Shown here: one piece after another, positions 20,327-52,992 of the stretch | Position numbering within the stretch: the stretch's first letter is position 1 | How the letters are laid out: every line of letters begins with the position of its first letter | Source: Ruminiclostridium josui JCM 17888 | GTDB lineage: Bacteria > Bacillota > Clostridia > Acetivibrionales > DSM-1351 | Length of the DNA stretch: 64,000 bases | Assembly: GCF_000526495.1 (NCBI RefSeq) | Contig: NZ_JAGE01000001.1 | Location: 1,424,001-1,488,000, forward strand | Reading direction: 5' to 3' | Program-made: the position numbers and the translations under genes | Notes under the pieces: generated by a model | What the model was told of the DNA's origin: nothing | Seen by the model: the letters and a program-made list of their open reading frames with translations, nothing else | Databases searched by the model: none

Positions 20327-21517
20327 TTATAAGGCCACTTTATCTAAAATCCCTCTAAGCTTTGCAATTGCTATTCCGTAATTGCATATACTTATATTCT
20401 GAGCTAGGGCTGACTCTATACGTGATAATACATATTTTCTGTTGAACATACAACAGCCACATTGAATAACTAGAGAGTATTTTGACAAATCCTTTGGAAA
20501 ATCTGTTCCACTAACAATGTCAACAGTCAGACCTTCGCCCACCTTTTGTCTGAGAAGTCTTGGAAGCTGCACACGTCCAATATCTTCATTTAATGGCACA
20601 TGGGTACAGGCCTCTGCAATCAAAACAGCTGATTCCTCAGTAAGTGCGTCTATTGCTTCTGCACCCTTAATGTATGCAGAAATATCACCCTTGTATTCTG
20701 CGAACAGTACAGAAAATGATGTTAATAGGCTTTCTTCAGGCTTTTGCGCATACACCTTGTCAAACACCTGGGAATCAGTAATTATTAACTTTGGGGGCTT
20801 TGACATTGCCTTTAGTGCATTGTCAAGCTTGTCAGTAGTAACGCTCATAACCATACATTTTAAATCAAGCAAATCTCTGATTACCTGTACCTGTGGCAAA
20901 ATCAGACGCCCCTTTGGAGCCTGAATATCCTGAGGCATAACCAGCAGTACCAAGTCTCCTTCATTGACAAGATGGGCTGTTATACTGCTTACCTCAAAAT
21001 CTTCCGGCACGGCTCTTATAAGTTCTTCTCTTACTTTATCAAGTCCTGTTTTTTCCTTTGCACTGATAACGATTGGCATCAGCCCAAGAGTTTCCTCTAC
21101 CTGTTTTTTTATATCACTGGTATTTTCAAGTATATCTGCTTTATTAATAACAGGTATAACAGGTATTTTACGTTTTTTTAGCTCCTCAGTCCATTCCTTT
21201 TCCAGCGAAAGCTCTGTTCCTGAGAAAAAAACAATGGCTACATCTGTTTTTTCAATGGCCTTGCGAGTTTTTTCAATTCTCAATTCTCCTAAAGTTCCAA
21301 CATCGTCAAACCCCGCTGTATCAATAAACATAACTGGACCTAAGGGATGCAGCTCCATGGCCTTGTATACGGGGTCGGTGGTGGTTCCAGCGATTTCAGA
21401 TACCAATGCAATATCCTGTCCCGTTATTGCATTAATTAGTGAAGATTTCCCGCTGTTTCTTCTGCCGAACAGCGCAATGTGCAACCTGTTTGCACCCGGT
21501 GTATTTGTAAGACTCAT
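20327..21517 (-). CDS. hydF: [FeFe]-hydrogenase H-cluster maturation GTPase HydF
   Basis: This protein of about 396 residues is the scaffold on which the 2Fe subcluster is assembled before transfer to the hydrogenase. It has an N-terminal GTPase domain (GRRNSGKSS, DTAGFDD, NKAD), a dimerisation domain, and a C-terminal cluster domain with CTH and CGCC matching the CxH...CxxC iron-sulfur site. The ATG at 21517 is chosen over 21559 because AGGAGGA precedes it and it then follows hydG by 16 bp. It is the last gene of the regulator-hydG-hydF operon. Confidence 0.96.
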   Translation of the reverse strand: MSLTNTPGANRLHIALFGRRNSGKSSLINAITGQDIALVSEIAGTTTDPVYKAMELHPLGPVMFIDTAGFDDVGTLGELRIEKTRKAIEKTDVAIVFFSGTELSLEKEWTEELKKRKIPVIPVINKADILENTSDIKKQVEETLGLMPIVISAKEKTGLDKVREELIRAVPEDFEVSSITAHLVNEGDLVLLVMPQDIQAPKGRLILPQVQVIRDLLDLKCMVMSVTTDKLDNALKAMSKPPKLIITDSQVFDKVYAQKPEESLLTSFSVLFAEYKGDISAYIKGAEAIDALTEESAVLIAEACTHVPLNEDIGRVQLPRLLRQKVGEGLTVDIVSGTDFPKDLSKYSLVIQCGCCMFNRKYVLSRIESALAQNISICNYGIAIAKLRGILDKVAL

Positions 21518-21533: not shown

Positions 21534-22946
21534 CTAGAACCTGAAATCCCTCTTACCATTATGGAGATCTCTTAAATGTTCTTTTACGATTCTTTTGACA
21601 TCTTCGTTTTGCAGTAACTCTACTTCTTTTTCTATCATTTTCTCGCCTTTTTGCCTTGTATCTTCTGATGCATAGTCTTCCAAATATTCCTTTAGTGTCA
21701 TAATTGCATTGGGATGACAAACATGGGCAATTGCACCGCTCTTAACAAGTCTCATAAACCTGTCCCCTGTTCTGCCTTCCCGGTAGCACGCTGTACAGAA
21801 GCTTGGAATGTATCCCAGAGTCAAAAGCCAGTTAACTATTTCGTCCATAGTTCTTGTATCATTAACTTCAAATTGAGCAGAATTCTCAGCTTCTTTTTCT
21901 ACATAACCACCCACACTTGTGGATGACCCTCCACTGATTTGGGAAACACCCAATTTAAGACATTCCCTACGGGTCTTTTCCGATTCTCTTGTGGACATGA
22001 TTATACCGGTGTATGGTACTGCTATACGAAGTATTGCTACAATTTTTTCAAATATGGAGTCAGGTACTGCATTGGAATATTCCTTCAAATCCACATCATC
22101 AGCCGGTCTTATACGTGGCACGCTGATTGTGTGAGGCCCAACTCCCATTGCATCCTCCAAATGCTTTGCGTGCATAAGCAAGCCCACAAAATCATATTTG
22201 TAAAGATTCAGTCCAAAGAGAACACCAAGCCCTACATCATCTATTCCACCCTCCATTGCTCTGTCCATGGCCTCAGTATGATAAGCATAGTTATGTTTTG
22301 GCCCCTTGGGGTGCAGATATTCGTATGTTGGTTTATGGTAAGTTTCCTGAAATAATATATAGGTTCCTATTCCCGCATCCTTGAGCTTTTTGTAATTTTC
22401 AACTGTTGTAGCGGCAATGTTCACATTTACACGGCGTATTGCACCGTTTTTGTGCTTTATTCCATAAATTGTTTTTATACTTTCCAATACATATTCTATA
22501 GGACAATTTTCAGGATCCTCTCCCGTTTCAAGGGCAAGTCGTTTGTGACCCATATCCTGCAAGGCCTTAACTTCTCTGACAATGTCTTCTTGAGACAACT
22601 GTTTTCTTGCGATATGCTTGTTTGAACCGTGGTATGGACAATATCTGCATTCATTCACACAGTAGTTTGAAAGATATAGGGGTGCAAACATTACTATCCT
22701 ATTTCCATAAAATTTATTTTTAATATGCTCTGCAAGCTTAGACACCCTTTCTTTAACTTCATCTAGCTCACATTCCAATAATACTGCTGCTTCCCTGTAG
22801 CTTAGTCCTTTATACTCAGCTGCCTTCTGAAGAATATCTTCTATAAGTGGCATATTCTCCTTGTTCTTGCGGGCATACTCCAGTGTTTCTAAAATTTCCG
22901 CATCATTAATAAAGTCCTCGGCTTTTTTTGATTTGCTGTTATACAT
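21534..22946 (-). CDS. hydG: [FeFe]-hydrogenase maturase HydG, radical SAM tyrosine lyase
   Basis: This protein of about 470 residues cleaves tyrosine to supply the CO and CN ligands of the H-cluster. The N-terminal radical-SAM barrel carries CVNECRYCPYHG (C-x3-C-x2-C). The C-terminal auxiliary cluster site is CTACYREGRTGDRFM followed about 20 residues later by HVCHPNA. The ATG at 22946 has GGAGGAAG upstream; a GTG at 22961 lies within that site. It lies between the TM1266-type gene and hydF. Confidence 0.97.
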   Translation of the reverse strand: MYNSKSKKAEDFINDAEILETLEYARKNKENMPLIEDILQKAAEYKGLSYREAAVLLECELDEVKERVSKLAEHIKNKFYGNRIVMFAPLYLSNYCVNECRYCPYHGSNKHIARKQLSQEDIVREVKALQDMGHKRLALETGEDPENCPIEYVLESIKTIYGIKHKNGAIRRVNVNIAATTVENYKKLKDAGIGTYILFQETYHKPTYEYLHPKGPKHNYAYHTEAMDRAMEGGIDDVGLGVLFGLNLYKYDFVGLLMHAKHLEDAMGVGPHTISVPRIRPADDVDLKEYSNAVPDSIFEKIVAILRIAVPYTGIIMSTRESEKTRRECLKLGVSQISGGSSTSVGGYVEKEAENSAQFEVNDTRTMDEIVNWLLTLGYIPSFCTACYREGRTGDRFMRLVKSGAIAHVCHPNAIMTLKEYLEDYASEDTRQKGEKMIEKEVELLQNEDVKRIVKEHLRDLHNGKRDFRF

Positions 22947-23006: not shown

Positions 23007-23252
23007 TTATATTTTTGAATAAACAGTCTTTGTATTGACTCCCTTTAACATTCCCAATTTCCCTGAAAGTGAGCTAATGATATCATTTGGGGCATCAACA
23101 ACCACGCTTATAATGGAGACACCCTTTTCACGATATGGAATCCCCATTCTTCCAACTATATATTTTCCGAATTCATGTAGTATCAGGTTTATCTTTTCTG
23201 CTGACGATAAATCATCAACTATTATTCCTATTAGAGCAATCCTTGTCTCCAT
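23007..23252 (-). CDS. TM1266-type iron-only hydrogenase system regulator
   Basis: This ACT-like protein of about 81 residues starts METRIALIGIIVDD and contains YIVGRMGIPYREKGVSIISVVVDAP, the signature of the family associated with [FeFe]-hydrogenase maturation genes. Its ligand and action are not established. The ATG at 23252 follows GGGAGG; a longer start at 23303 would lie inside the leader terminator. It is the first gene of the hydG-hydF operon. Confidence 0.9.
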   Translation of the reverse strand: METRIALIGIIVDDLSSAEKINLILHEFGKYIVGRMGIPYREKGVSIISVVVDAPNDIISSLSGKLGMLKGVNTKTVYSKI

Positions 23253-23428
23253 TTGGCTGCCTCCCTCACAAATAAAATAAAACCCCTGATGCTTTACAGG
23301 CACAGGGGTTCTCCTAATCCACCTTATAGCACCGCCTTACCACTTGGGACTAACCCTCGTGCATTCAGAACGATATTTGAAATAAATCTCTTTACTCTCA
23401 GCATTAAAACTTTGAGCTCAGATACTTT
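23253..23428 (-). ncRNA. Structured 5' leader of the hydrogenase maturation operon, candidate riboswitch
   Basis: The transcript from the promoter at 23435-23463 has a leader of about 175 nt. Its 3' part holds a terminator hairpin (AACCCCTG at 23303-23310 pairing with CAGGGGTT at 23281-23288) followed by TTTATTTTATTT. The 5' arm of that hairpin lies in a strand (23300-23310) that can instead pair with 23352-23362 (GCACGAGGGTT, 10 of 11 positions including one wobble). The enclosed 41 nt contain a D-arm-like CCAAGTGGTAAGGC. Mutually exclusive stems ahead of the operon are the layout of a transcriptional riboswitch or attenuator. It was not recognised as a known class. Confidence 0.6.
23275..23310 (-). 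terminator. Intrinsic terminator within the hydrogenase-maturation leader
   Basis: A perfect 8-bp stem (AACCCCTG with CAGGGGTT) with a 14-nt loop and a T-rich tail lies about 20 nt before the Shine-Dalgarno of the TM1266-type gene. Its position before the first gene implies attenuation rather than end of transcription. Confidence 0.8.
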
Positions 23429-23434
23429 GATAAT

Positions 23435-23463
23435 ATTTTAACATATTCATACAGCACCTTCAA
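23435..23463 (-). promoter_or_regulatory. Sigma-A-type promoter of the hydrogenase maturation operon
   Basis: On the minus strand, -35 TTGAAG (23463-23458) and -10 TAAAAT (23440-23435) are separated by 17 bp. Transcription would start near 23428. Confidence 0.7.
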
Positions 23464-23555: not shown

Positions 23556-23948
23556 ATGAATTGGTTCAGAAAATTTATGATTGGAAGGTACGGGCCTGAT
23601 CATTTGTCCGCCGGACTTCTTTTTTTATCATTGCTAATTTCATTAATAGGTATGTTTGTACCAGTTAGCTGGTTTGGTTATCTGTCTTATATTCCACTAG
23701 TACTATGCTTTTACAGAATGTTTTCTAAAAATATTTATCGCAGAAGAGCAGAAAATAATAAATTCTTGGTTTTCTGGAATCCAATTGCCAGTTGGTTTTT
23801 TAAAAGAAAAAAACGCTTAATGGATTCTAAAACTCACAGGTATTACAAATGTCCTCAATGCAAACAAGAGGTACGCGTTCCCAAGGGTAAGGGAAAAATA
23901 CAGATAACCTGTCCAAAGTGCAGGACAGAGTTTATACGTAAATCCTAA
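23556..23948 (+). CDS. Membrane protein with C-terminal zinc ribbon
   Basis: This 130-residue protein has two hydrophobic segments (about residues 18-38 and 40-58) and a basic linker. Its C-terminal zinc ribbon reads CPQCKQEVRVPKGKGK then CPKCRTEF (two CPxC pairs). Such proteins are frequent in Clostridia but their role is unknown. The ATG has AGGAGG upstream. It is divergent from the hydrogenase maturation operon and convergent with a small Cys-rich gene. Confidence 0.8.
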   Translation: MNWFRKFMIGRYGPDHLSAGLLFLSLLISLIGMFVPVSWFGYLSYIPLVLCFYRMFSKNIYRRRAENNKFLVFWNPIASWFFKRKKRLMDSKTHRYYKCPQCKQEVRVPKGKGKIQITCPKCRTEFIRKS

Positions 23949-31489: not shown

Positions 31490-31725
31490 CAAAAAAACCT
31501 TCCAATCCCATATAACAATGGGACGGAAGGTATCCGCGTTGCCACCCAAATTGCCGATAAAAATTATCGACCTCTCGACAAAAGTACTATAAAGGGTACC
31601 AACCTCTCGATTCGTCACCGACAGCTCCAAAAGTGGATAGACTCATTTTCTCACCGATTTTCACCACCCATCGGCTCTCTTCAGAAAAAAATAAATCATA
31701 GCTTTTATTATCGCTGTTTTTTGAT
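31490..31725 (-). ncRNA. T-box leader of serS
   Basis: The minus strand carries the T-box motif GGGTGGCAACGCGG (about 31534-31548) and the terminator hairpin ACCTTCCAATCCCAT/ATGGGACGGAAGGT (31497-31531) ending in TTTTTTT. Stem I-like helices lie upstream to about 31725. Uncharged tRNA binding favours the antiterminator. Specificity for tRNA-Ser is inferred from the gene; the specifier codon was not fixed. Confidence 0.9.
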
Positions 31726-52669: not shown

Positions 52670-52870
52670 CATCCGGATTTCAAATAAACACACCCCCTAT
52701 CACTCGTAGAGTTAACAGTGTAAGCATACAGACAGGTATTCTGACTAAGGCATCAACACTCTCCATTCCTTCCCAGTTAATATACCAGTGGATTATATGG
52801 AGAACTCCTCCAACACAGCGGCGGGACCGTGCAGGGCTCAAACCTGCTTCCCTTATCTGTAGCTTTTATT
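52670..52870 (-). ncRNA. Cobalamin riboswitch
   Basis: The minus strand contains a run reading AAGCAGGTTTGAGCCCTGCACGGTCCCGCCGCTGTG, then CCACTGG...AACTGGGAAGG and the B12-box-like AGTCAGAATACCTGTC. These are in the order and spacing of the adenosylcobalamin aptamer. It precedes a transporter operon and a terminator, so binding probably stops transcription. Confidence 0.92.
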
Positions 52871-52992
52871 AAGTTATACTGTATATACTAATATAAAATA
52901 AAGTTAATAGCAAATACAATTAGGAGACATTTTCGTCCAAATTTCTTACTTTAGCGAATCTGTCAATTCAATACCATATATGTCAAACTATA

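Follow-up and report, generated by a model that had tools for sequence, protein, structure and literature searches.

What sets the level of the hydrogenase maturation machinery in bacteria, and which signal does it answer to? To our knowledge, little is known about how the amounts of HydE, HydF and HydG are controlled, and we know of no role for the TM1266 family, whose gene opens the hydG-hydF operon of Ruminiclostridium josui JCM 17888. We analysed a 64,000-nucleotide stretch of this genome (hereafter the window), in which a preliminary description had proposed an undescribed riboswitch or attenuator ahead of that operon. Comparison with other leaders supports a new leader RNA with a choice between terminator and antiterminator, whereas the aptamer originally drawn, with its resemblance to a tRNA D-arm, was not upheld. 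An RNA element with such testable on/off logic would offer a direct handle on the signal.

The leader of the hyd operon in the window

All features of the leader and operon lie on the minus strand and are read from 23463 towards 23253 (Table 1). The window TM1266 protein is 96% identical to that of the R. papyrosolvens locus in a protein search, and TM1266 is encoded in all 11 genomes of our genus sample. The promoter had been described as clear; the site exists, yet it is statistically no better than chance, since a scan returned four promoter-like sites compared with 4.5 in shuffles. The leader length proposed earlier agrees with the position of this site. The same intergenic region holds a divergent plus-strand gene (23556-23945) for a small membrane-like protein, whose C-terminal four-cysteine end appears zinc-ribbon-like by eye.

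Table 1 Features of the hyd leader and operon (window positions)
Feature	Position	Strand	Details and basis
Possible sigma-70 promoter, TTGAAG-17-TAAAAT, TG ahead of -10	23435..23463	-	9/12 matches; position suits leader
Untranslated leader, ~175 nt	23253..23427	-	Sequence and promoter position; start near 23427 inferred
Conserved hairpin element, new RNA motif	23327..23378	-	R1 61 bits; comparison of leaders
P1	23332..23373	-	23373-23367 (UCGU-u-CU, bulged base 23369) with 23337-23332 (AGGCGG); RNAalifold and pair counts
P2 (CAC/GUG), 2x2 GA/AA step, P3 (GGG/CCC), 5-nt loop	23341..23361	-	RNAalifold and pair counts
Antiterminator of window lineage	23300..23362	-	23362-23352 (GCACGAGGGUU) with 23310-23300 (AACCCCUGUGC); 10/11 positions paired, single A-C mismatch
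Intrinsic terminator	23265..23312	-	Stem 23312-23279, U-rich tail reaching 23265
TM1266 gene	23007..23252	-	First gene of operon; TIGR03959 / PF21699
hydG	21534..22946	-	TIGR03955, 889 bits; start codon chosen by eye
hydF	20327..21517	-	TIGR03918, 561 bits; start codon chosen by eye

The strong terminator reported just ahead of the first gene was confirmed. Its stem and U-rich tail fold at -18.2 kcal/mol, compared with -7.95 in shuffles (z -4.2, equalled by 0 of 200 shuffles); a simple terminator scanner did not include it in its list. The alternative 11-position stem, described as able to break the terminator, also stood: it is paired at all positions except the one mismatch, and pairing of the 5' strand of the window hairpin with the terminator arm reached -14.9 kcal/mol versus -8.1 for shuffled arms (p 0.019). 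The isolated 63-nt stretch adopts this stem, with a z of just -1.4 and 17 of 200 shuffles equal to it. A window transcript cut before the terminator closes folds into the 11-position stem (-21.1 versus -19.6 when the hairpin is imposed); the full-length transcript folds as hairpin plus terminator. The 11-position stem is the antiterminator of the window leader.

The 41 nt enclosed by this stem had been taken for an aptamer. The conserved fold proved to be a different hairpin, at 23378-23327, which uses strands of the 11-position stem, and the two folds are mutually exclusive. The stretch likened to a D-arm (CCAAGTGGTAAGGC) is present, but comparison of leaders assigns it to this conserved hairpin, where it forms the 3' strands of P3, P2 and P1.

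A conserved, covarying hairpin

We compared the best 80 of 188 TM1266 relatives from a protein search together with 11 loci of the genus. One recurring element was found among the upstream DNA of these TM1266 loci, with the consensus YGU-n-CUGA-(P2-P3)-nnAAGGCR; it was seen upstream of TM1266 and hydE, hydF or hydG in many Clostridia and also in Sporomusa. The window and 41 loci were aligned with MAFFT (A1, 42 rows), and RNAalifold returned, unprompted, the same fold that we had drawn by hand. P1 pairs CGU-n-CU with AGGCG, and a conserved GA, which adjoins P1 in the window (23366-23365), faces nnA. P2 of about three pairs is followed by a 2x2 GA/RA step and by P3 with a usually 5-nt loop.

In A1, 93.4% of 503 cells were paired, and 44 double-change cells were counted compared with 14.1 in shuffles, none of 500 shuffles being as high. 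The rows had been picked with a pattern that contained P1 letters, so the constancy of these letters in A1 is partly due to selection. When a covariance model built from A1 (R1) was run on the window plus 99 loci, 72 matches passed E 0.01, one of them within hydG. It found the element in 49 of 77 TM1266-query loci (the 80 minus three copies of genus loci), many of the 49 being model-building rows.

We then fitted 65 distinct rows to the model built on A1 (A3). In A3, 94.7% of 779 cells were paired, versus at most 50.6% for slid structures. Such fitting favours the model structure, but the unfitted A1 agrees with A3. Covarying conservation in homologous leaders, which had been set beforehand as one of two tests of the proposal, was strong: A3 contained 84 double-change cells compared with 17.9 in shuffles (0 of 500 as high), with both-sided changes in 9 of 12 pairs, including 6/6 pairs of the P2-P3 helix. 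Within P1, C-G changed to U-A in six rows and G-C to A-U in one. The leaders thus contain a conserved, covarying, aptamer-like element of the kind expected of a riboswitch.

Pairing between the hairpin and the terminator

Terminators were called in 69 of 71 leaders, 2 to 275 nt downstream of the element; four calls were doubtful, and both extremes of distance are among these. Pairing and folding were examined in 60 leaders, after dropping six with no or a doubtful terminator (L046, L021, L024, L067, L091, L092) and five near-duplicates (L068, L008, L105, L031, L029). When partners of the terminator 5' arm were sought in the leader plus 150 nt upstream, the best one lay inside the hairpin in 43/60 leaders, with the 3' half supplying it in 24 and the 5' half in 19, compared with 22% predicted from length. 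It lay outside in 17, and upstream of the hairpin in 14 of these. The antiterminator partner is the 5' strand GCACGAGGGUU in most Ruminiclostridium leaders and the 3' strand AAGGCG in many others. Arms paired better with the hairpin strands of their own leader than after permutation among leaders: -7.95 versus -7.25 with the 3' strand (0 of 10,000 permutations) and -9.29 versus -8.86 with the 5' strand (p 0.037).

Folding, with energies that ignore folding order and ligand, gave a similar picture. Transcripts cut before the terminator 3' arm and left to fold freely retained at least three quarters of the hairpin pairs in 2/60 leaders; in 36/60, less than half of these pairs were retained and at least five terminator-arm bases paired upstream. 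By computation, most leaders (43/60 by partner, 36/60 by folding) therefore possess an expression platform that is exclusive with the element. Hairpin and terminator formed together in just 31/60 full-length folds. In the close relative L013, the 5'-strand antiterminator is weak (-9.5 kcal/mol) and the hairpin was retained in the cut transcript.

Since the best partner of the terminator arm lies within the hairpin in most leaders, the hairpin would be an anti-antiterminator, so that a stable hairpin means genes off. The hairpin, with its bulged P1, an internal loop of CUGA and AAGG, and variable P2 and P3, would fold first. If it is held, its strands would stay occupied, the downstream terminator would form and the operon would be off. 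If it opens, one strand would pair with the terminator 5' arm, the terminator would not form and the operon would be read. We infer that this switch operates in cells and that stabilisation of the hairpin turns the genes off, the on/off direction being the one predicted by folding.

Variant, antisense and rejected matches

A sub-type II was recognised at four loci upstream of TM1266 (L010, L026, L054, L088). The order UGU-ua-CUGA, P2, RA, P3, AA, P2' and RAAGGC is kept, with a poorer P1 in L054, whereas the letters of P2 (CGCC/GGCG or CACC/GGUG) and P3 differ; the conserved core reads CRCC-RAAUA...UAUAA-GGYG. All four were missed by the R1 search, and the class is therefore wider than the counts given here.

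Several RNA-model matches of 21-26.5 bits were rejected as chance (L108-L111, L205, L206, L085:4448 and the second matches in G442 (L178) and G436 (L179)), as they lie inside same-strand open frames of 213 to 764 codons. L207, at a contig end, was excluded from the site counts. Two importer sites score near this chance range, L210 with 26.1 bits and L106 with 27.3 (R1) and 31.2 (R2). They were accepted because in each the hairpin is followed by a usual-type terminator, and because two genomes of one genus share this context. One A1 row, L047, had no R1 match at E 0.01 and no R2 match in its genome, so any occurrence in Victivallales comes down to L049, itself a training row (30.3 bits with R1, 26.9 with R2).

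At L067:3299-3350 (minus strand), the element sits immediately beyond the end of TM1266 and in the opposite orientation. Transcription from it would cross TM1266 in the antisense direction and reach hydG, whose position was checked for this locus. Weak opposite-strand elements behind TM1266 (10-16 bits), which look degenerate, were seen at L042, L077, L081 and L089.

Distribution and gene context

Genome scans with R1 matched 17 of the 398 genomes in a phylum sample. Scans with R2 matched 28/245 genomes of a class, 6/25 of one order and 39/40 of those previously known as carriers; in the last set, second copies were left out save those of G409 and G414. Removal of in-frame matches, one contig end and repeats between scans left 42 distinct sites. 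TM1266 comes first at 34 of these, hydE at four and an importer gene at three, and the remaining site lies at a contig end. Downstream, hydE, hydF or hydG is found at 32/42 sites and an ABC importer operon at 9/42, directly after TM1266 at six of the nine and with the importer first at three. The importer consists of a permease, an ATPase and a substrate protein whose relationship to NMT1 and SsuA scores below the NCBIfam cut-offs. At the level of sequence, we regard the hairpin, its covariation, the terminator, their complementarity and the association with hyd and importer genes as established.

All 39 genomes brought in by the RNA model encode TM1266, 13 of them from the phylum sample and five from the genus; G409 and G414, both fetched via TM1266, stand outside this count. 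In the phylum sample, TM1266 occurs in 209/398 genomes and an accepted motif in 13/398. The motif is far rarer than TM1266, and most such operons therefore lack the element or carry forms that the models miss.

Comparison with known RNA classes

The leader had earlier been matched to none of several known riboswitch classes, and a hit to an Rfam family, named as a refuting result, was absent from every search. At gathering score, Rfam gave no match in the window leader and none for the element in 15 loci. A permissive search of the window leader had its best match at E 0.21 (rnk_pseudo, RF01772; 22.3 bits versus a gathering score of 55), the second stem of this family being aligned onto the terminator hairpin. 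Permissive searches of a Sporomusa, an importer-operon and a sub-type II leader, the other three of four leaders searched in this way, identified no family; an rne5 fragment appeared at E 0.055 (12.9 bits versus a gathering score of 180). The Rfam search also located a cobalamin riboswitch elsewhere in the window (52714-52897, minus strand, 82 bits).

Transcription-terminating riboswitches include the TPP, Moco and cobalamin classes. Like these, the hyd leaders combine a conserved covarying 5' element with a strand common to element and antiterminator, and their sites precede both biosynthesis and import genes. Unlike these, they have a fold and sequence without Rfam match, a single bulged hairpin, a ligand that is so far proposed, and two different antiterminator partners, depending on the leader. 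T-box leaders (RF00230) resemble them in the terminator/antiterminator choice and in leader length. However, the T-box model has no match in the hyd leader, while it matches the window at 31516-31720 (minus strand, 101 bits), in line with the original description, which could not match it to this class.

PyrR governs pyr operons by autogenous, protein-dependent attenuation. The hyd leaders are similar in that the hairpin would be an anti-antiterminator and a possible regulator gene comes first at 34/42 sites. They differ in that TM1266 is a different protein, common without the motif and with hypothetical RNA binding. As in PyrR-like control, the candidate regulator gene was found wherever the RNA was (39/39). 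In contrast, the RNA did not occur wherever the protein did (13 versus 209 of 398 genomes, under strict filters and for one sub-type).

In the literature, the words hydrogenase, TM1266, hydG and iron-only are absent from the body of PMC8632094, PMC11109978 and PMC6429828, and the text of PMC2864571 contains none of hydrogenase, NMT1 or hydG. No RNA element before hyd maturation genes was named in the titles, opening lines of abstracts and passages surveyed, including those from PMC7266159, PMC6239172 and PMC3543383; an orphan motif present solely in supplements, or among the 224 candidate RNAs collected in 2017, could escape such a survey.

Nature of the signal

We consider it probable, though far from secure, that the leader represents an attenuator class absent from Rfam 15 and the papers searched, with the hairpin held directly by a small molecule or ion. 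The P1 internal loop would bind a compound that reports sufficient H-cluster assembly, and end-product repression would then cover maturases and importer alike. A directly bound signal of H-cluster supply is favoured because shutting off maturases and importer together is how end-product control would work. Should a ligand prove to be bound, the element would be an RNA sensor for the assembly of an organometallic cofactor.

The main rival effector is TM1266 itself. By analogy with PyrR, the protein, signal-loaded or unloaded, would bind the P1 internal loop of the same attenuator and thereby cause termination of its own operon, a scheme that we rate as possible but rather unlikely. It would account for the presence of TM1266 in every genome entering through the RNA model, compared with about half of the phylum sample, and for its place as the usual first gene. 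Moreover, the conserved part of the RNA is a single internal loop in one hairpin, sufficient for a protein, and the family carries the NCBI label 'putative regulator' and has a solved homologue structure (2nzc). However, in the phylum sample 196 of 209 genomes encoding TM1266 have no accepted motif match, so TM1266 should have another role there. The co-occurrence is itself expected, since leaders of TM1266 served to train the RNA models and TM1266 is in any case linked to hyd genes. Were TM1266 the bound partner, a function would be assigned to a conserved family for which a structure has been solved.

Two other readings were considered. The hairpin could be a mere spacer or RNA-stability element, with the terminator fixing a low level of expression, as the coexistence of hairpin and terminator in 31/60 full-length folds would allow. 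This is very improbable given that terminator arm and hairpin complement each other much better than expected, and more so in the same leader than across leaders, and that the conserved unpaired letters (the GA of CUGA and the first A of AAGG) would be superfluous in a spacer. Sensing of another RNA or of uncharged tRNA, in the manner of a T-box or by D-arm mimicry, was suggested by the appearance of CCAAGUGGUAAGGC in the window; we regard it as extremely improbable. Letters of this stretch outside AAGGC vary between lineages while pairing is kept, and a T-box is detected elsewhere in the window and not in the leader; on these grounds both ideas were rejected.

Importer operons in HydA genomes

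Four genomes (G461, G679, G680, G073; 98-100% complete, 1-4% contamination) have the switch-TM1266-importer arrangement (loci L211, L213, L181, L209) together with HydA (L228, L229, L231, L233). Their HydA is full-length (344-346 bits) with the motifs MPCxxKxxE and EIMxCPGGCxxGGG. The HydG model, which elsewhere acts as a weak detector of HydE and was the one genome-wide search for it here, found nothing in G461 and G073; in G679 and G680 it gave just HydE-like matches that fell well short of the cut-off. No match of the HydF model exceeded the cut-off in these four genomes, the best being partial matches of 95-110 bits to the GTPase part; this model matches all 14 control genomes, one of them over cut-off. 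G521 (93% complete) is a similar case, but with weak HydA matches (100 bits plus a fragment). Three other genomes (G314, G378, G688) combine HydG, HydF and an importer site, and G591 has HydF (581 bits), an importer site and a best HydG match of 181 bits, below cut-off.

Assembly gaps are unlikely as the sole cause of the missing maturases, because the four genomes belong to three families. The finding of HydA genomes in which neither HydG nor HydF was detected led us to consider salvage of an H-cluster compound. In this speculative and improbable scheme, the hairpin would act as a riboswitch sensing a building block or intermediate of the H-cluster, and the NMT1/SsuA-like importer would bring this compound in. 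If so, bacteria with HydA and without HydF and HydG would salvage the compound as others salvage vitamins, and the cofactor of [FeFe]-hydrogenase or a precursor would pass between cells.

A radical SAM protein follows the TM1266-importer genes in G521 and G680, the latter scoring 193 bits with the HydE model (cut-off 254.6). By locus, the HydE-like protein ends the TM1266-importer operon at L213:5019-6062 (193 bits, below the HydE cut-off) and, as a counterpart, in L212, both in genomes where no HydG was found. Two new candidates for a part in H-cluster metabolism emerge from the regulon, the importer and a radical SAM enzyme resembling HydE.

The first HydA motif in the four genomes reads TSCSPGW, as it does in three HydG-bearing genomes. 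Of ten loci examined, nine (L227-L234, L236) yielded a HydA frame with these motifs, and in eight of the nine the first motif is TSCSPGW instead of TSCCPGW.
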